Of a stretch of DNA of 64,000 nt, positions 25,656 to 51,299 are shown piece by piece. The DNA is taken from NCBI RefSeq assembly GCF_014635305.1, contig NZ_BMCS01000001.1, positions 744,001 through 808,000 of the forward strand. Direction: 5' to 3'. The notes under the pieces were generated by a model that worked only from the letters and a program-made list of their open reading frames with translations, was not told where the DNA came from and made no database searches. How positions within the stretch are numbered: position 1 is the stretch's first letter; each line of letters opens with the position of its first letter. Origin of the DNA: Williamsia phyllosphaerae. Its GTDB lineage: Bacteria > Actinomycetota > Actinomycetes > Mycobacteriales > Mycobacteriaceae. A program made the position numbers and the translations under genes.

Positions 25656-25692
25656 TCGGCGACCGGTCGGCGGGCGAACCCGGGCATTAAAA

Positions 25693-25741
25693 AGCTTCGA
25701 CCGAGCTGCCGGGTCGGGGGTCTGGCAGCTCAGCCGAAGCT
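25693..25741. terminator. Two-step hairpin between the SIP promoter and fadA2
   Basis: AGCTTCG (25693) pairs with CGAAGCT (ending 25741), and GAGCTGCC pairs with GGCAGCTC inside it, separated by 3-nt internal loops. All bases in both steps match. It lies after the fadA2 terminator and upstream of the SIP promoter, so it may insulate the iron operon from fadA2 read-through. Confidence 0.5.
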
Positions 25742-25804
25742 GTCTTGGATATCGAGTGACGCCCGTCAGGCGTTACACATTTCTCTGAAATTGTTTCGCC
25801 GGTG

Positions 25805-25851
25805 CCGTGACCTGCGCAAACCCCTCGGAAGTCACTCCGCGCAGGTCACGG
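25805..25851 (-). terminator. Terminator hairpin after fadA2
   Basis: CCGTGACCTGCGC at 25805-25817 pairs perfectly with GCGCAGGTCACGG at 25839-25851, 14 nt from the fadA2 stop. There is no U-tract, which is common in actinobacteria. Confidence 0.65.
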
Positions 25852-25865
25852 TCACCGACGGGTGA

Positions 25866-27197
25866 TCAGGCCTCGACGATGGCGGTGACGCCCTGGCCGC
25901 CGGCGGCGCAGATCGAGATCAATGCGCGGCCGCCACCGTTGGCGTGCAGCTGCTTGGCCGTCTGGGCGACGATGCGTCCGCCGGTCGCGGCGAAGGGGTG
26001 CCCGGCCGCGAGGGACGAGCCGTTGACGTTGAGCTTGGCGCGGTCGATCGACCCCAGGGCCGCGTCGAGGCCGAGACGTCCCTTGCAGTACTCGTCGGAC
26101 TCGAAGGCCGCGAGCGTGCAGAGCACGACCGATGCGAACGCCTCGTGGATCTCGTAGTAGTCGAAGTCCTGCAGCGTGAGGCCGTTGCGCTCGAGCAGAC
26201 GCGGGATCGCGTAGGTGGGCGCCATCAGCAGGCCGTCGGGCCCGTTGATGTAGTCGACCGCGGCGGTCTCGACGTCGACCAGGTGCGCGAGCACCGGGAG
26301 GTTCTTCTCCGCGGCCCACTCGTCGCTGGACAGCAGCACGGCCGACGCACCGTCGGTGAGCGGGGTCGAGTTGCCCGCGGTCATGGTCGCGTCGCCGAGT
26401 CCGACGCCGAAGACCGGCTTGAGCTTGGCCAGCTTCTCCACCGAGCTGTCCGGACGCAGGTTCTCGTCGCGGGTCAGGCCCAGGAACGGCGTGATCAGGT
26501 CGTCGAAGAAGCCCGCGTCGTACGCCTTGGCCATGTTCTGGTGGCTGGCCGCGGCGAGCGCGTCCTGATCGGCGCGCTTGATGCCGAACTCCTTGGCCGT
26601 GATGGCGGCGTGGTCGCCCATCGACATGCCGGTGCGCGGCTCGCCGTTCTTGGGGATCTCGATGCCGATCTTGGGCAGCAGTGCGGCGATCGCCTTGAGG
26701 CGGTCGCCGGTGCTGCGGGCCCGGTTGACCTCCAGCAGCGCCTTGCGCAGCGGCTCGGAGACGCCGATGGGCGCGTCGGAGGTGGTGTCGACGCCACCGC
26801 CGATGCCGGCGTCGTACTTGCCGGTGGCGATGCCGTCGGCGACGAGCGAGATGGCCGAGAGACCGGTGCCGCAGGCGTGCTGGACGTCGATGCCCGGGGT
26901 GTACGGCGACAGCGCCGAGCCGAGGACGGACTCGCGGATCAGGTTGAAGTCGCGCGAGTGCTTGAGGACGGCACCGCCTGCGACCATGCCCAGACGCTCA
27001 CCCTGCAGACCGAAACGGCTCACGAGGCCGTTGAGGGTGGCGGTGAACATGTCCTGGTTGCTGGCCTTGGCGTAGGCCTTGTCCTGGCGGGCAAACGGGA
27101 TTCGGTTGCCGCCGACGATCGCGACCGGCCGAACCGTCTTCGCCTTGGCGGCGCCGGACTTGGCTCGAGTGCTCTTGGATGTTCCTGCTGTTGCCAC
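25866..27197 (-). CDS. fadA2: Acetyl-CoA acyltransferase / thiolase (FadA2-like)
   Basis: 443 residues, thiolase superfamily. It catalyses thiolytic cleavage or condensation of acyl-CoA. Catalytic residues are visible: Cys in QHACGTG, NEXXA-type HEAF, GHP in SLAAGHPF, and the second Cys in ICAAGGQG. It has an N-terminal extension rich in Ala, Lys and Ser (about 25 residues) before the fold starts at VRPVAIVGGNRIPF. It is divergent from fabG4-htdX, the same arrangement as M. tuberculosis Rv0243 with Rv0242c-Rv0241c. The start is GTG at 27197. The shared promoter region carries a perfect TetR-type operator. Confidence 0.92.
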   Translation of the reverse strand: MATAGTSKSTRAKSGAAKAKTVRPVAIVGGNRIPFARQDKAYAKASNQDMFTATLNGLVSRFGLQGERLGMVAGGAVLKHSRDFNLIRESVLGSALSPYTPGIDVQHACGTGLSAISLVADGIATGKYDAGIGGGVDTTSDAPIGVSEPLRKALLEVNRARSTGDRLKAIAALLPKIGIEIPKNGEPRTGMSMGDHAAITAKEFGIKRADQDALAAASHQNMAKAYDAGFFDDLITPFLGLTRDENLRPDSSVEKLAKLKPVFGVGLGDATMTAGNSTPLTDGASAVLLSSDEWAAEKNLPVLAHLVDVETAAVDYINGPDGLLMAPTYAIPRLLERNGLTLQDFDYYEIHEAFASVVLCTLAAFESDEYCKGRLGLDAALGSIDRAKLNVNGSSLAAGHPFAATGGRIVAQTAKQLHANGGGRALISICAAGGQGVTAIVEA

Positions 27198-28691: not shown

Positions 28692-29570
28692 ATGGCAACC
28701 GTCGCGCTCACGCGCCTCCCCGCGACCTCGGACGTCTACCGCAGCGCCGTGTTGGGAATGCTCCCCGGCATCGGCAAGAGCGGCCCGGTGCGTCCCGACG
28801 CATCGCTGCCCGACACCACCTACACGGTGTCGAACCTGACCACCGACGCCGACCAGGTCCGCGCGTACTGCTCGGCCACCGGTCTGCAGTTCGGTGAGTT
28901 CCTGCCGCTGACGTTCCCGTTCGTCGCACAGTTCCCGCTGATGATGCAGACGATGGTCGCCAAGGCTTTTCCGTTCGGCGCGGTCGGTTCGGTGCATCTG
29001 GAGAACCGCATCCACCGGCTGCGCCCGATCTCGATCGGTGAGCCGCTGTCCATCGCCACGCACGCGGAGAAGTTGCGCGAGCACCGCAAGGGCATCCTCG
29101 TCGACGTGGTCAGCCGCATCAGCGTGGGTACCGAGTTGGTGACCGAGCAGGTCTCGACGCTGCTCAGCCAGCAGCGCACGAGCCTGTCCGACGGCGAGCG
29201 TTCCGCGCCGCCGAAGGATCATCGTCCGCCGGCACCGGATGTCTCCCTCGCGGTCGACCTGGGGCGCATCCGCGCCTACGCCGGGGCCAGCGGTGACAGG
29301 AACCCGATCCACATGGCGAACCTGACCGCGAAGGCGTTCGGTTTCCCCCGTGCCATCGCGCACGGGATGTGGACCGCAGCAGCAATTCTGGGCAGCATCG
29401 AGGCGCACCTGCCCGACGATGTCGTCTACGAGGCGAAGTTCGGCAAGCCGATCCTGTTGCCCGCCAAGGTCAACGGATACGTCGACGCGGTCGGTGACGG
29501 CTATGACGTGTCGGTTCTCAACCGCAGCAAGGGCTACCCGCACCTGACCGGCACCCTGCGCGGCGCCTGA
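28692..29570 (+). CDS. htdX: (R)-3-hydroxyacyl dehydratase of the MaoC family (HtdX-like)
   Basis: 292 residues. An N-terminal half lacking the hydratase motif is followed by a MaoC hot-dog domain with GDRNPIHM and AIAHGM, which contain the catalytic Asp and His. It would dehydrate or hydrate the 3-hydroxyacyl thioester made by FabG4, so the pair performs two consecutive steps in fatty-acid elongation or a related pathway. The order fabG4-htdX with divergent fadA2 is conserved in mycobacteria. The ATG at 28692 is preferred; an upstream GTG at 28683 overlaps fabG4. Confidence 0.9.
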   Translation: MATVALTRLPATSDVYRSAVLGMLPGIGKSGPVRPDASLPDTTYTVSNLTTDADQVRAYCSATGLQFGEFLPLTFPFVAQFPLMMQTMVAKAFPFGAVGSVHLENRIHRLRPISIGEPLSIATHAEKLREHRKGILVDVVSRISVGTELVTEQVSTLLSQQRTSLSDGERSAPPKDHRPPAPDVSLAVDLGRIRAYAGASGDRNPIHMANLTAKAFGFPRAIAHGMWTAAAILGSIEAHLPDDVVYEAKFGKPILLPAKVNGYVDAVGDGYDVSVLNRSKGYPHLTGTLRGA

Positions 29571-29588
29571 CCGCGCTCGATCGACATG

Positions 29589-29624
29589 AACTCCCCGTCG
29601 TGATCTATGTCACGGCGGGGAGTT
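29589..29624 (+). terminator. Terminator hairpin after htdX
   Basis: AACTCCCCGTCGTGA pairs with TCACGGCGGGGAGTT (one mismatch in 15 bp) around a 6-nt loop, 18 nt after the htdX stop. Confidence 0.85.
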
Positions 29625-29703
29625 CGTGCATCTAGGTTGTTCGTTACGACTACACAATCAATGAGCTCGAAGACGTCGGGCCGATCACGAAGGAGTGAGT
29701 TCC

Positions 29704-30295: not shown

Positions 30296-30355
30296 CGCTC
30301 CACTTTCGTTGAAACGCTCCGGTTGCAACCGGAGCGTTTCGATGTAAGTGGAGCG
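30296..30355. terminator. Very long nested hairpin between the LEA-like and aldo-keto reductase genes
   Basis: The outer arms CGCTCCACTT (30296-30305) and AAGTGGAGCG (30346-30355) match perfectly. The inner 30 bp (30311-30340) is a perfect palindrome with arms GAAACGCTCCGGTTG and its complement. The 5-nt joints between arms are mostly G-U or Watson-Crick compatible. The hairpin starts 13 nt after the LEA-like stop codon, so termination is the simplest reading, but GGAGCGTTT is repeated at 30331 and 30350 in front of the reductase, so an operator role is possible. Confidence 0.75.
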
Positions 30356-37848: not shown

Positions 37849-38640
37849 ATGATCCAGGACCGATTCCGACTGGACGGGCAGGTGGCGGTGGTGACCGGCG
37901 CCGGTCGCGGACTCGGGGCCGCCATCGCGTACGCGTTCGCCGAGGCGGGCGCCGACGTCGTCATCGGATCGCGGACCGAGTCCCAGCTCGACGAGGTCGC
38001 CGAGCGGGTACGCGCACTGGGGCGCCGCGCCGTCGTGGTCGCGGCCGATCTCAGCGATCCAGAGGTCACCGCGGGTCTGGCCGGCACCGCGAAGAACGAA
38101 CTCGGCCGGCTCGACATCGTCGTCAACAACGTGGGCGGCACCATGCCGAGCGCGTTGCTCGACACCAGCGTCAAGGCGCTCGAGGGGGCGTTCCGGTTCA
38201 ACGTCTCGACCGCGCATGCCCTGACCTGTGCCGCGGTGCCGTTGATGCTGGAGAACGCCGACGGTGGATCGATCATCAACATCACCTCGGCGATGGGACG
38301 GCTACCCGGTCGGGCGTTCGCCGCCTACGGGACCGCGAAGGCCGCACTCGCCCACTACACCCGCCTGGCCGCCGAGGACCTGTCACCGCGGATCCGGGTC
38401 AACGCCATCGCACCCGGTGCGATCGCCACCTCGGCACTGGAGATGGTCACCTCTGACGAGGGCATGCGCACGGGACTGGAGCAGGCGACGCCACTGCGTC
38501 GCATCGGCCACACCGACGAGATCGCCGCGGCGGCACTGTATCTCGCGTCGGCGGCCGGGTCCTACACGACCGGGAAGATCCTCGAGATCGACGGCGGGAT
38601 CGTCAAACCCAACATGGAGCTGCCGCTACCCGATCTGTGA
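37849..38640 (+). CDS. Short-chain dehydrogenase/reductase
   Basis: 263 residues, classical SDR: cofactor motif GAGRGLG, structural NNVGG, catalytic Ser in ITSAMG and YGTAK. Product-side GGIVKPN at the C-terminus is typical of FabG-like members. It oxidises or reduces an unknown alcohol/ketone. AGGGAG precedes the ATG at 37849. Its last 15 nt overlap the convergent TetR gene. Divergent IclR control suggests an inducible catabolic step. Confidence 0.9.
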
Positions 38641-39252
38641 GACGTGCTCGCCGCTGACCTTCTTGTCGCCGGCCAGACCGTGCCACCCCATGCCGAACAC
38701 GAGATCGGTGGCGCTGTCGAGATCGATGTCGCCCTCGGTGATCCGATCGGCGACGGCCTCGCCGGCTCCGACGAGCGCCACCGCCATCAACTCGAAGTCG
38801 GTCTCGGTCGCGCCCTCGACCGTCGTACCCCGACGGAGCAGGTCGGCGATCATCTCGATGAGTCGGGCGCGGCTCGCGTCGACGATCGCGGTGAAGTTGG
38901 ACTGTGCGGTGGCCACCCGGTAGAGCACCCGCCACGACGCCCGGTTGGTGTCGACGAAGTGCAGGAACTCGTAGATGACGGTGCGGGCCTGGTCGCGCTG
39001 CTTGAGGTTCGGGTCGAACCCGGTGGTCATGGCCTCGATGAACCGGCTGCCCTCACGGTTCACGCAGGCGGCGAACAGCTCGTCCTTGGATCCGTAGTAG
39101 AGGTACAGCATGGGCTTGCTGATGTTCGCCGCGGCGGCGATGGTGTCCATCGCGGTGTCGCGAAAGCCCTTCTCGGCGAACACCGATACGGCGGCATCGA
39201 GCATCTGCTGTTCGCGCACCGCGCGGGGGAGCCTCTTCGTGCCACCGGCCAT
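38626..39252 (-). CDS. TetR-family regulator (candidate repressor of fadA2 / fabG4-htdX)
   Basis: 208 residues. The N-terminal TetR helix-turn-helix is clear: [41 protein letters not shown] is split over residues 18-60. The ligand domain follows. Its promoter region carries CTTAC-N6-GTAAG within a perfect 20-bp inverted repeat. The same pattern stands in the fadA2/fabG4 promoter 12 kb away, so I infer autoregulation plus control of that acyl-CoA block. In M. tuberculosis the TetR gene Rv0238 lies in the matching neighbourhood. Confidence 0.88.
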
Positions 39253-39290
39253 GGTCCACCGCCTTCCGCCCGGTCCGAACCGAAGACCTC

Positions 39291-39310
39291 AACTTACCAG
39301 GCAGTAAGTT
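39291..39310. promoter_or_regulatory. TetR-type operator upstream of the 38626-39252 regulator
   Basis: AACTTAC (39291-39297) and GTAAGTT (39304-39310) are perfect inverted arms around CAGGCA. The inner pattern CTTAC-N6-GTAAG equals that of the operator at 27239-27254. It lies 38 nt upstream of the regulator and overlaps the stop codon of the next TetR gene. Confidence 0.7.
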
Positions 39311-39920
39311 ACGAACGTTCGACCGTGGCGACGTCGGCCCGACGATAACCCACCGCGTCGAGCGCCGCGGCGACGGTGACCTCGGCCAGGTGGGTGTCGA
39401 CCGCGCCGAGAGCGGGCATCAGGGTACGGAGCAGGAGCGGCCCGGTCAGCAGGTCGCAGATCTCGTCCGGATCGGAACCGGCGGTGATGTCCCCGCGGCG
39501 GGCGGCCTGGTCGAGGGCCCGGCGGACGGCCGCTCGACGCGGCGTCATGATGTCCTCGAACAGACGCGAACGCAGGGTGTCGTTGCGCGAACTCTCCTCG
39601 ATCAGGCCGGGCATGGCCCGGACGACCAGGGGATCGGTGAAGAAAGCGATCTGTTGCTTCTGCAGTGCGTCGAAGTCGGAGGGCAGATCACCCGAGTCCG
39701 TGCGGGGGTCGAAAACCACGCGCGAGCTCATGGCCGCGGATACGATCTGCGCCAGCGACGCGTACCGGCGATAGATCGCCGGACGCGTCGTGCCGGCGGC
39801 GCGAGCCACCGCATCGATGGTCGTCGCGCCGTAACCGATCTCGACGATCATTCTCGCTGCCTCATCGAGAATGGCGTCGTCAATCGATGAATCTCGTGGT
39901 CTCCCGGTGTTGACCATCAT
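39309..39920 (-). CDS. TetR-family regulator
   Basis: 203 residues with a TetR N-terminal domain (LDEAARMIVEIGYGATTIDAVARAAGTTRPAIYRRYAS, residues 19-55) and a TetR_C-like domain with IEESSRNDTLRSRLFEDIM. It has its own palindrome just before the start (39924-39936), distinct from that of the neighbouring TetR gene. The two TetR genes are tandem, 56 bp apart, and not closely similar. Its target is unknown; the structured region upstream contains no clear gene for it to control. Confidence 0.88.
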   Translation of the reverse strand: MMVNTGRPRDSSIDDAILDEAARMIVEIGYGATTIDAVARAAGTTRPAIYRRYASLAQIVSAAMSSRVVFDPRTDSGDLPSDFDALQKQQIAFFTDPLVVRAMPGLIEESSRNDTLRSRLFEDIMTPRRAAVRRALDQAARRGDITAGSDPDEICDLLTGPLLLRTLMPALGAVDTHLAEVTVAAALDAVGYRRADVATVERS

Positions 39921-39923
39921 ACA

Positions 39924-39936
39924 TTACAAGCTGTAA
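39924..39936. promoter_or_regulatory. Operator upstream of the 39309-39920 TetR gene
   Basis: TTACAAGCTGTAA, arms TTACA and TGTAA around AGC, 4 nt upstream of the ATG. It probably mediates autoregulation, and its position over a leaderless start would block transcription fully. Confidence 0.6.
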
Positions 39937-40023
39937 CGTAACGGTGCATGAGGACGACAGTAGCAGTGCGGAGGGACGAATGTCTCGGGGGGCACTGCTC
40001 GGTCAATCGGAAGGAAAGTTCCG

Positions 40024-40281
40024 TTGGGTGATGTCTTGATGTGGACGGTGGTGCTCATGACGATCGTGAGCTCACTGGCTGTTTCGACCGTCACCCTCCT
40101 TGTCATTTCGCGGCTTCGGGATATTGGGGAGTACTCCCGGGGCCGCGGAGCTCGCGGCGTCGCGTCCCACACAGGGACATCCGACGCGCACGGACCTGCG
40201 GGCACTACGCGATTCCGAACGAATTCTACGTGGGGTACTTCGTTCGGAGACGCATCTATCGTCCCACCAGTCCGGTGGTGA
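40024..40281 (+). CDS. Possible small membrane protein
   Basis: 85 residues from TTG 40024, or 80 from ATG 40039. GGAAGGAAAG ends about 5 nt before the TTG. Residues 6-30 form one hydrophobic helix (WTVVLMTIVSSLAVSTVTLLVI) followed by SRLRD, which looks like a genuine single-pass segment. The C-terminal half (from about residue 38) is low-complexity and lies over the stem-rich element at 40127-40325, so the coding part may end earlier or the frame may be accidental. No family is recognised. Confidence 0.35.
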   Translation: MGDVLMWTVVLMTIVSSLAVSTVTLLVISRLRDIGEYSRGRGARGVASHTGTSDAHGPAGTTRFRTNSTWGTSFGDASIVPPVRW

Positions 40282-40325
40282 CGCGGACAGCTCGTGTCCG
40301 GATGCGTTACCCGCGTAGTGCCCGC
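40127..40325. other. Multi-branched structured element (candidate ncRNA or structured DNA)
   Basis: Nested perfect stems fill the stretch. P1: GCGGGCACTACGCG (40198-40211) with 40312-40325, 14 bp. Inside it, P2: TCCGAACGAA (40214-40223) with 40239-40248. P3: ACGCATC (40250-40256) with 40301-40307, extendable by G-U on the plus strand. Inside P3 are P4: 40260-40268 with 40274-40283 (9 bp, one bulge, loop AGTCC) and P5: CGGACA with TGTCCG at 40284-40300 (loop GCTCG), adjoining without gaps. Upstream hairpins are GTCCC-ACACA-GGGAC inside GCGTCG/CGACGC (40157-40187), CCGCG-GAGCT-CGCGG (40143-40157) and the palindrome GGGAGTACTCCC (40127-40138). Most apical loops are 5 nt. It is the only sizeable gene-poor stretch in the window. 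The transcribed strand is uncertain. Confidence 0.55.
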
Positions 40326-40352
40326 TGACGCCGTCTCGATCAGCTGCGTCAG
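40325..40352 (-). terminator. Hairpin at the end of the lpqI gene
   Basis: CTGACGC (40325-40331) pairs perfectly with GCGTCAG (40346-40352) around a 14-nt loop, overlapping the lpqI stop codon. It directly adjoins the outer stem of the structured element, so it could also be part of it. Confidence 0.45.
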
Positions 40353-41569
40353 CAGGCACCCGCACCGGTCGCTCGCAGGTTGCGCGCGACCGACCGGTCG
40401 ACCTGGGCCTGCGGCAGCCGCTTCTCCCGCACCGCCGAGGTGAGAGCGGCGAGCACATCGGGGACCTTGTCGGTGCTCAGCCACAACGCGAGGTCGGCGC
40501 CGGCGGTCAACGCCCGCACGACCGCCTCCTCGATCCCGTACCGCGCGCTGATCGCGGCCATCCCACTGAGGTCATCGGTGAAGATCGGGCCGTCGAACGG
40601 TTTCCCGCCGTAACCGGCCCCGCTCCGCAACAGCCGCATCGCCGGGGCCGAGATGCTCGCGGGTAGTTCATCGCCGGTGAGTCCGGGCACGATCAGATGC
40701 CCCACCATCACCCCGGCCGTCGGCACCGCGCGGGTCGCCGGTCCCGGCAGCAGCGTGCGGTAGGGCACGAGGTCGTCGTTCTTCAGCTCCGACAGCGGCG
40801 GCGTGCGGACGGTGCCGGTGTGCGAATCGCCCGAGCCGTGACCGTGGCCGGGGAAGTGCTTGAACACCGGCATCACGCCGGCGTCGCGCAGTCCGTCGGC
40901 GAAGGCGCTCGCGTAGCGGGCCACGACCGCCGGGTCGTCGGAGAACGACCGGTCGCCGATCACCTCGTCGTCGGATTCGTCGCTCACGTCGGCGTCCGGC
41001 GCGAAGTCGACGTTGATCCCGAGACGCTTGAGTCCGGCACCGGTCTTCGCGGCGATGCGGCGCACCTGCGCAGGTGTGGAGGTCGACGCCAGTTCACGCG
41101 CCGACGGGCTGTCGATACCCAGTTCGGAGAGCCGCGAGACCCGGCCACCCTCCTGGTCGACCGTCACCATCAGCGGCCGTTTCGACTGCGCCGCGATCGC
41201 CTTCAGGCGACCGTTCGCCAGGATCGAGAAGTCGGTGAAGCTGCCGACGAAGATCCCGCCCACGTGATAGGTGTCGACGACGCGACGCGCGTCCTGCGTT
41301 CCGCTCACCCCGACCACCAGCATCGCGGCCAGCTTGTCGCGCAACGACATCGACGCCACGACGGGCGACGCGCATCCGGCGGCGACCGCCTTCGAGCTGC
41401 TCGGCGCCGACGACGTCGCCGAGGGAGCTGCCGCGGAGCTCGTCGAACCGGCACTGCTGGTCGAGGTCGCGACACCGTCGGCCCCGCTGCCACAACCCAC
41501 CAGCACGGCGAGAAGACCCACCACACCGACGGCCACACCCTGACGGCGACGCGCCTCCGTTTTCCGCAT
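40349..41569 (-). CDS. lpqI: Lipoprotein beta-N-acetylglucosaminidase, GH3 (LpqI/NagZ-like)
   Basis: 406 residues. A lipoprotein signal (basic start, VAVGVVGLLAVLVGC with lipobox LVGC near residue 29) is followed by a Ser/Thr/Ala-rich linker and a GH3 catalytic domain: DQEGGRVSRL, the family-hallmark KHFPGHGHGSGDSHTG with the catalytic His-Asp dyad, and FTDDLSGM with the nucleophile Asp. NagZ-type enzymes cut GlcNAc from muropeptides in cell-wall recycling; mycobacterial LpqI is Rv0237. The ATG at 41569 gives a normal signal peptide. Confidence 0.93.
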   Translation of the reverse strand: MRKTEARRRQGVAVGVVGLLAVLVGCGSGADGVATSTSSAGSTSSAAAPSATSSAPSSSKAVAAGCASPVVASMSLRDKLAAMLVVGVSGTQDARRVVDTYHVGGIFVGSFTDFSILANGRLKAIAAQSKRPLMVTVDQEGGRVSRLSELGIDSPSARELASTSTPAQVRRIAAKTGAGLKRLGINVDFAPDADVSDESDDEVIGDRSFSDDPAVVARYASAFADGLRDAGVMPVFKHFPGHGHGSGDSHTGTVRTPPLSELKNDDLVPYRTLLPGPATRAVPTAGVMVGHLIVPGLTGDELPASISAPAMRLLRSGAGYGGKPFDGPIFTDDLSGMAAISARYGIEEAVVRALTAGADLALWLSTDKVPDVLAALTSAVREKRLPQAQVDRSVARNLRATGAGAC

Positions 41570-49539: not shown

Positions 49540-49606
49540 GAAATCGTCCGTCTGGAGGCTCGCTTCGGGCAATACGCCCGAGGTGACGCTCCAGGCGGAC
49601 GATTTC
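49540..49606. terminator. Bidirectional terminator between the DUF3068 and LLM genes
   Basis: The arms 49540-49557 (GAAATCGTCCGTCTGGAG) and 49589-49606 pair over 18 bp with one mismatch. Inside the loop is a second perfect hairpin TCGGGC-AATAC-GCCCGA (49565-49581). It stands between convergent genes. Confidence 0.8.
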
Positions 49607-51238: not shown

Positions 51239-51249
51239 ATCCGCGGATC

Positions 51250-51288
51250 GTCAGCAGTCTTTCCCGCTGAGCGGGAAAGACTGCTGAC
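51250..51288. terminator. Bidirectional terminator, 18-bp perfect stem
   Basis: GTCAGCAGTCTTTCCCGC pairs perfectly with its complement around a 3-nt loop TGA. It lies 12 nt from the stop codons of both convergent genes. Confidence 0.9.
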
Positions 51289-51299
51289 CTTCAAGCGAC

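Follow-up and report, generated by a model that had tools for sequence, protein, structure and literature searches.

The messages of type I toxins are structured mRNAs that encode a short hydrophobic peptide and hide its ribosome-binding site. Actinobacterial RNAs with Rfam families (F6 and others) are conserved within their lineages. For mycobacteria, terminators have been described that are hairpins without a U run ('I-shaped'), located at most 50 bp from the stop codon (excerpts of PMC12288462). This terminator model is contested: the reference list of the same article, as far as available, contains a paper under the title that the U-tract is required.

The locus described here resembles each of these systems in part. 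It lies in a 64,000-nucleotide stretch of DNA from Williamsia phyllosphaerae (this whole stretch is referred to as the window). With type I toxin mRNAs, it shares a structured and probably translated message, a short hydrophobic peptide and a ribosome-binding site that is predicted to be hidden. It differs in that an antisense RNA was not found, in its TetR-type operator and in being a single genus-wide locus. It is lineage-conserved, as are F6 and the other actinobacterial RNAs, but stays below every family cut-off and is much longer than F6 (57 model positions). As in the excerpts on U-less terminators, there is a GC-rich hairpin near stop codons that is devoid of a U run. Here, however, the hairpin is branched, its core is conserved in sequence, and structure extends over the remainder of the proposed transcript.

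A preliminary description of the region 40120-40352 had reported dense nested stems and proposed an undescribed structured RNA. This reading is supported by compensatory changes in relatives, by an energy far below that of shuffled sequence, by the presence of one full copy and by the lack of an Rfam match. It needs some amendment. At about 385 nt, the structured RNA has roughly three times the length of the P1-P3 domain, and the originally delimited region is only its 3' third; it also overlaps a probable small membrane-protein ORF. All stems that had been named could be confirmed by sequence reading and folding. The 3' domain comprises the following features:

40198-40211, plus strand: 5' strand of P1, GCGGGCACTACGCG; it overlaps the ORF codons RALR(D/E) in 7 of 8 genomes, and 12 of 14 columns are invariant.
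40214-40248, plus strand: P2 arm with an invariant UAC-GUGGG-GUA tip; 25 of 31 inner columns are invariant and three pairs are double-changed.
40249-40308, plus strand: P3, a three-way junction here, a single hairpin in three species, missing in Williamsia herbipolensis.
40312-40325, plus strand: 3' strand of P1; 11 of 14 columns are invariant, and the stop codon of the convergent lpqI is 23 nt away.

In the window strain, P1 is a perfect helix of 14 bp (40198-40211/40312-40325) and P2 has 10 bp (40214-40223/40239-40248). The junction stem of P3 (40250-40256/40301-40307) is lengthened by a G-U pair (40249/40308), and the hairpins 40260-40283 and 40284-40300 are present. The region of 233 nt (40120-40352) was folded on both strands (z -6.0 on plus, -5.3 on minus) and none of 200 dinucleotide shuffles was as good on either. 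For the 136-nt core, z is -8.7, again with 0 of 200 dinucleotide shuffles as good. Among 1597 scanned segments of 130 nt, the element ranks fifth and is the third distinct site; hairpins of equal stability occur elsewhere in the window, at gene ends. Three further hairpins, drawn upstream in the preliminary description, are found in that form only in the window strain and its two close relatives, W. maris and a MAG (see below). They add little stability in the window strain (40120-40193, z -1.1), and the region folds differently in the other five genomes, some with a low z (to -3.8 in Williamsia deligens). Other, longer hairpins are conserved there (H2 at 40106-40150 and H3 at 40155-40182, see below), which lie partly beyond the region originally delimited.

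All comparisons within the genus are based on only eight genomes: the window strain (G000), Williamsia maris (G007), a MAG (G004), strain CHRR-6 (G002), W. herbipolensis (G003), W. deligens (G006), Williamsia serinedens (G001) and an uncultured isolate (G005). The first three are close to each other. The element occurs at the same place in all eight, with compensatory changes; W. maris provides the best match to the window element. The z of the core ranges from -7.07 to -8.73. The genome contains one full copy, the 40 other listed matches being fragments (E 0.08 or worse), which removes the concern that this might be one of many scattered identical copies. A covariance model of P1 and P2 (R1) has one match in the window genome at E 0.01. 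R1 matches 8 of 401 genomes from the family, all Williamsia, and 2 of 397 in a wider sample from the order, both also Williamsia; stricter filters were used for these two samples, so that weak matches can be lost. A 19-base pattern matched 21 times, including 14 matches outside Williamsia, none of which has the structure (best 16.1 bits, E 0.5). The structured RNA is thus single copy and has so far been found only in the genus Williamsia.

With Rfam at the gathering cut-off, the whole window gave nothing at the element and only F6 elsewhere. A search of 39880-40400 against Rfam 15 with E up to 10 returned eight matches (best E 0.85), all far below cut-off. There is no match at E 0.01 in collections of plasmids and phages, and an origin from either was rejected on this basis. 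Titles and abstracts in the literature contain no description of this RNA among the matches listed. The RNA, which matches no Rfam family, is classified as a structured RNA specific to one lineage. There is good support for its conserved fold, and its phylogenetic range is narrow.

All eight genomes keep P1, with its 14 bp, and P2, in which 9-10 bp are followed by a tip of 3 bp around GUGGG. In the P1-P2 alignment, 98.1% of cells are paired and three P2 pairs are double-changed. None of 500 shuffles attains its covariation score. The counts of double-changed pairs (reached by 262 of 500) and of further pair types (472 of 500) are not exceptional. Double changes are absent from P1, which in strain CHRR-6 is imperfect, with 11 of 14 pairs. 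In the window strain, W. maris, the MAG and strain CHRR-6, P3 forms a three-way junction with five double-changed pairs (2 of 500 shuffles have as many). Its place is taken by a single hairpin in W. deligens, W. serinedens and the uncultured isolate and by nothing in W. herbipolensis. The junction that had been reported is thus present in the window strain but, of all parts of the reported element, it is conserved least.

The core is also constrained in sequence. In P2, 25 of 33 columns are invariant when the end pair is counted. For comparison, fourfold sites are invariant in 12 of 130 cases in lpqI and in 4 of 73 in tetR1 (eight genomes). Using 12/130, binomial values are 6e-21 for 25/31 (P2) and 1e-9 for 11/14 (P1 3' strand), with columns treated as independent. 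A strong hairpin just after the gene ending at 29570 (29571-29640), which is also found in all eight Williamsia genomes, served as a comparison. As judged by eye, its sequence is almost the same in the three close genomes, altered but still related in W. herbipolensis, and clearly different in W. deligens, W. serinedens, the uncultured isolate and strain CHRR-6; it is an example of 3'-end hairpin turnover. As the sequence of P1 and P2 is held while this one turns over, the element is not a freely drifting terminator. A second comparison hairpin (gene 25866-27197) was left out, having mixed folds in 7 of 8 genomes and a partial match in strain CHRR-6. We also considered that the P2 frame might encode a conserved peptide (NEFYVGYFVR-like) but do not prefer this, as the nucleotides are held at most third positions too (by eye).

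When the alignment was extended upstream (alignment A8), it covered a larger RNA with the following features:

39946-40329, plus strand: whole conserved structured RNA with leader, ORF region, H2, H3 and P1-P3; both transcript ends are inferred.
39948-39954, plus strand: 5' strand of P0, a long-range helix with 40097-40103, with seven pairs in 8 of 8 genomes.
39956-40004, plus strand: leader stems (39956-39958/40002-40004, 39963-39969/39992-39998 and 39973-39975/39984-39986).
40008-40023, plus strand: hairpin before the start codon; a Shine-Dalgarno-like purine run is in its loop in the consensus fold.
40026-40096, plus strand: H1, a long irregular hairpin across the hydrophobic codons, with 23 pairs (helices 6 and 7).
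40097-40103, plus strand: 3' strand of P0, pairing with 39948-39954.
40106-40150, plus strand: H2 hairpin, with 18 pairs, 91.7% of cells paired and four double-changed pairs.
40155-40182, plus strand: H3 hairpin, with 9 pairs, 84.7% of cells paired and seven double-changed pairs; its sequence is species-dependent.

RNAalifold, applied to 39946-40329 of the eight sequences, predicts one fold which includes the long-range helix P0. P0 has no double change, and two of its pairs vary on one side only. Two pairs of the leader stems are double-changed (CG/GC and UA/CG), each split four against four sequences. The hairpin before the start codon has five pairs, one being double-changed in 3 of 8 genomes; single-sequence folds of this region vary between genomes, most of all in strain CHRR-6. 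In the two helices of H1, 97.5% and 93.8% of cells are paired and five pairs are double-changed. H3 is the least certain part of the alignment.

The whole fold has 101 pairs and 808 cells, of which 95.2% are paired (a two-pair helix of P3 is left out). Double changes affect 22 pairs and 59 cells, with means of 15.8 and 24.3 in shuffles; these numbers are reached by 1 and 0 of 500. The covariation score is 0.285 versus 0.162 in shuffles, none of 500 reaching it. Further pair types are unexceptional (61 of 500 shuffles reach the count). With sliding partners, pairing falls to 34-48%. For these pair counts, the structure was derived from the same eight sequences; the structure conservation index serves as an external control. 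It is 0.69 for the leader and ORF (252 columns, identity 0.71), while the maximum is 0.59 in 34 controls from lpqI and 0.46 in 12 from tetR1 (46 in all, from 17 lpqI and 6 tetR1 segments with an identity of 0.75-0.76, taken on both strands). The ORF body, with 174 columns and an identity of 0.66, has an index of 0.65 versus at most 0.61 in 36 lpqI and 0.54 in 16 tetR1 controls. Single sequences provide uneven evidence for structure in leader and ORF. The z of the leader is near zero in strain CHRR-6 (-0.4), W. deligens (0.5) and the uncultured isolate (-0.5), and that of the ORF body is only -0.8 in W. serinedens; the other values are between -2.0 and -5.5. Compensatory changes go beyond chance, though some measures remain within shuffles, and the result is based on eight genomes and a self-derived structure.

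The plus strand, weakly favored from the outset by the G-U pair of P3, folds better in 8 of 8 cores, with a margin of 0.3 to 8.9 kcal/mol. G-U cells on plus outnumber would-be G-U cells on minus by 14 to 0 in the leader, by 7 to 3 in the full element of four genomes and by 3 to 2 in the P1-P2 core. The leader supports the plus strand; the core alone is close to neutral.

The preliminary description had stated that no gene explains the stems. This holds only in part, since a small plus-strand ORF from 40024 enters P1 in all eight genomes. The genes and signals of the locus are:

39309-39920, minus strand: tetR1, divergent, with domains TetR_N and TetR_C_11; probably part of the same cassette.
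39910-39939, plus strand: probable promoter (TTGACC, 18-nt spacer, TAACGT); predicted start at about 39946.
39924-39936, no strand: predicted TetR-type operator, the dyad TTACA-N3-TGTAA, which overlaps the promoter; each of the eight loci has exactly one.
40024-40281, plus strand: small ORF with a TTG start and 85 aa in the window strain; probable membrane protein.

The start codon of the ORF is TTG in the window strain and two relatives and ATG in the other five of the eight; it follows a purine-rich stretch that is kept in all eight. The ORF has 63 codons in W. herbipolensis, W. deligens, W. serinedens and the uncultured isolate, with the stop between the 5' strand of P1 and P2. It has 100 codons, reaching the end of P1, in W. 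maris, the MAG and strain CHRR-6. The window strain has an additional base near 40124; its frame changes after codon 33, resulting in 85 codons. This base, located within 40117-40127 when compared with the seven relatives, lies close to the H2 tip in a column without pairing, and may be real or an assembly error. A second 1-nt indel, between P1 and P2, changes the C-terminus between clades. Both indels are in unpaired columns of the consensus fold. A frameshift in the window strain, together with the indel affecting the C-terminus, is odd for a conserved protein. All four peptides that were scored have a hydrophobic span (residues 10-28 or 11-29). Codons 22-33 have a pN/pS of 0.21 in frame versus 1.12 and 2.68 out of frame. 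For codons 4-21, pN/pS is 1.12, indicating no amino-acid constraint. In H2, several variable third codon positions covary with their RNA partner. Translation of the ORF is considered likely.

Pfam and NCBIfam contain no family above the curated cut-off for this protein; the best is Rv2743c (19.2 bits versus 27.7, in 2 of 7 members). A profile of the ORF gives matches at E 0.1 or better in 65 genomes of the family that are not Williamsia (best E 1.7e-4, in one genome), many of the matches being within much longer frames. The matches outside Williamsia are taken as chance. There is also a 27-codon upstream ORF (39948-40031). Nearly a quarter of mycobacterial transcripts are leaderless, according to the available part of PMC4633059, so that the upstream ATG at 39948 could be read; its frame, open in 8 of 8 genomes, lacks amino-acid constraint, however (pN/pS 1.94), and the region is treated as RNA.

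Promoter hexamers and spacing are the same in 8 of 8 Williamsia genomes. A consensus promoter scan of both strands found no site, and missed the proposed plus-strand promoter as well. TetR1 is encoded in all eight (72-100% identity). Outside the genus, 11 genomes match at E 1e-20 (53 genomes searched in all), with at most 46% identity. For the TetR1 relative with 46% (genome G028), a match to the operator is absent and no similar small ORF adjoins (by eye). The gene lpqI is present in 23 of 41 genomes, 15 of these outside Williamsia. In none of these 15 is tetR1 within 1.5 kb of lpqI, while the next gene, a second tetR (38626-39252), has an ortholog beside lpqI in 9 of 15. This second tetR has its own dyad upstream (AACTTAC-N6-GTAAGTT, in the gap 39253-39308). 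Each of the eight Williamsia genomes has tetR1, the ORF and the element together. As tetR1 has no place beside lpqI in any of the 15 outsiders, the three look like one cassette which, judged by gene order, would have been gained in the Williamsia ancestor or lost elsewhere.

From the fold, its conservation, the cassette and their distribution among the genomes searched, we infer how the transcription unit may operate. We tentatively prefer, at somewhat short of even probability, an mRNA for a small membrane protein which is controlled by TetR1, restrained in translation, and ended and protected by the P1-P2-P3 domain. One plus-strand transcript of about 385 nt would extend from about 39946 to just beyond 40325, with its transcription controlled by the divergent TetR1. 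Its product would be a small single-span membrane protein. The leader would fold on itself, its first bases pairing with the ORF (P0), and the ribosome-binding run would be held in a hairpin loop, restraining translation. P1 would close the end, stopping readthrough towards the convergent lpqI and shielding the 3' end. The position of the element would be in line with U-less termination by analogy, under a model that is itself contested. P3 would be a replaceable hairpin, and the sequence-constrained P1/P2 core may be recognized by a partner. In the 63-aa forms, the stop codon is between the 5' strand of P1 and P2; because of this position, a finishing ribosome should melt P1, which would couple the 3' domain to translation. 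What counts against the mRNA reading are the 1-nt indels with their frameshift, the unconstrained codons 4-21, the negative scans, the small set of eight genomes, the low z of leader or ORF body in four of them, the covariation measures that stay within shuffles and the weak ORF-profile matches outside the genus, as well as strain CHRR-6, where P1 with its 11 pairs is about 138 nt from the lpqI stop.

If confirmed, the mRNA reading would provide a compact test case for coding and RNA structure coexisting in one sequence, and would show how its own message could restrain a TetR-controlled small membrane protein. A genus-restricted RNA that is folded through leader, small ORF and 3' end is in any case absent from Rfam 15. 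It is tempting to go further, though we consider this doubtful, and to speculate about a new family of large RNAs of about 385 nt with a global fold, which the Williamsia ancestor would have acquired together with a dedicated TetR regulator. Selection would then act on one sequence in two ways, as an ORF for a membrane protein and as a fold that a long-range helix closes at the 5' side. The 3' P1/P2 core would be a sequence-specific binding platform switched by the terminating ribosome.

The main rival to the mRNA reading holds that the RNA is noncoding: the molecule of about 385 nt, or an sRNA derived from it by processing, would act on proteins or other RNAs through its fold and P2 tip, with the ORF being incidental or secondary. 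Structure running across leader, ORF and 3' domain would be expected for such an RNA. It would also account for the two frame-changing indels in unpaired columns and for codons 4-21 being unconstrained while P1/P2 nucleotides are constrained. We nevertheless regard it as rather unlikely, given the in-frame pN/pS of 0.21 in codons 22-33, the start codon behind a purine-rich stretch in all eight genomes and the hydrophobic span in each of the four peptides scored. Next comes a mere 3'-end hairpin, an unusually branched U-less terminator shared by the convergent ORF and lpqI, which we judge unlikely. P1 begins 6-25 nt past the lpqI stop in 7 of 8 genomes and overlaps the ORF end, the ORF stop being inside the element in the four 63-aa forms. 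A U-less hairpin is at most 50 bp from the lpqI stop in the same number of genomes, with strain CHRR-6, where lpqI is about 138 nt off, as the exception. The six strongest structured sites of the window adjoin gene ends (genes being long ORFs that passed a GC3 filter), and hairpin clusters acting as terminators, as well as missing U runs, are reported in the available text of PMC8355165. A canonical intrinsic terminator (hairpin and U run) does not occur in 39850-40450 on either strand. A terminator would leave the conserved leader, H1 and H2 unexplained, and P1 and P2 are held in sequence, unlike the hairpin after 29570. On the latter comparison (by eye), an ordinary terminator alone was discarded as a complete explanation.

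A type I toxin-like mRNA, in which the membrane peptide would be silenced by its own structure plus an antisense RNA or lpqI readthrough, is very unlikely. It would fit the short hydrophobic peptide (four scored), the purine run in a hairpin loop and the stable 3' domain, but this is a single conserved locus, and no antisense promoter was found (by the scan that also misses the proposed plus-strand promoter). A foldback of the leader onto the 3' strand of P1 beats mononucleotide shuffles (at most 10 of 200 as good) in only 5 of 8 genomes, three of these being close relatives, which tends to speak against this reading; with 3 of 8 failing, the foldback is too inconsistent to be taken as a conserved switch. 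Hardly credible is a DNA-level palindrome, such as a mobile element end, a recombination site or a dispersed repeat. The long perfect inverted repeat would be consistent with it, and the genome does hold dispersed palindromes, which also form strong stems at gene ends (49541-49606, 51249-51290 and 30296-30355). Those are multi-copy, however, whereas the element is single copy with compensatory changes. A dispersed repeat or MITE was rejected in view of the element's one full copy and its fixed place in 8 of 8 genomes. Leader cells are G-U rather than A-C, and plasmid and phage collections are without match, which also argues against a palindrome at the DNA level.

A few observations concern other sites in the window. 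Five stable gene-end sites were searched in the genus; three are the dispersed palindromic repeats just mentioned, while 29521-29690 and 25761-25890 are not. The hairpins at 49541-49606 and 51249-51290 are strong and located between convergent genes. They represent two dispersed palindromic families with several copies, also in other Williamsia; at these places, they were refound in close relatives only, if anywhere. The site 30296-30355 is a 27-bp hairpin with one internal mismatch, just past a stop codon, and is dispersed with several copies in the window strain, the MAG and W. maris. The F6 TB sRNA match is at 25688-25746 on the minus strand and scores 47 bits versus a cut-off of 46.
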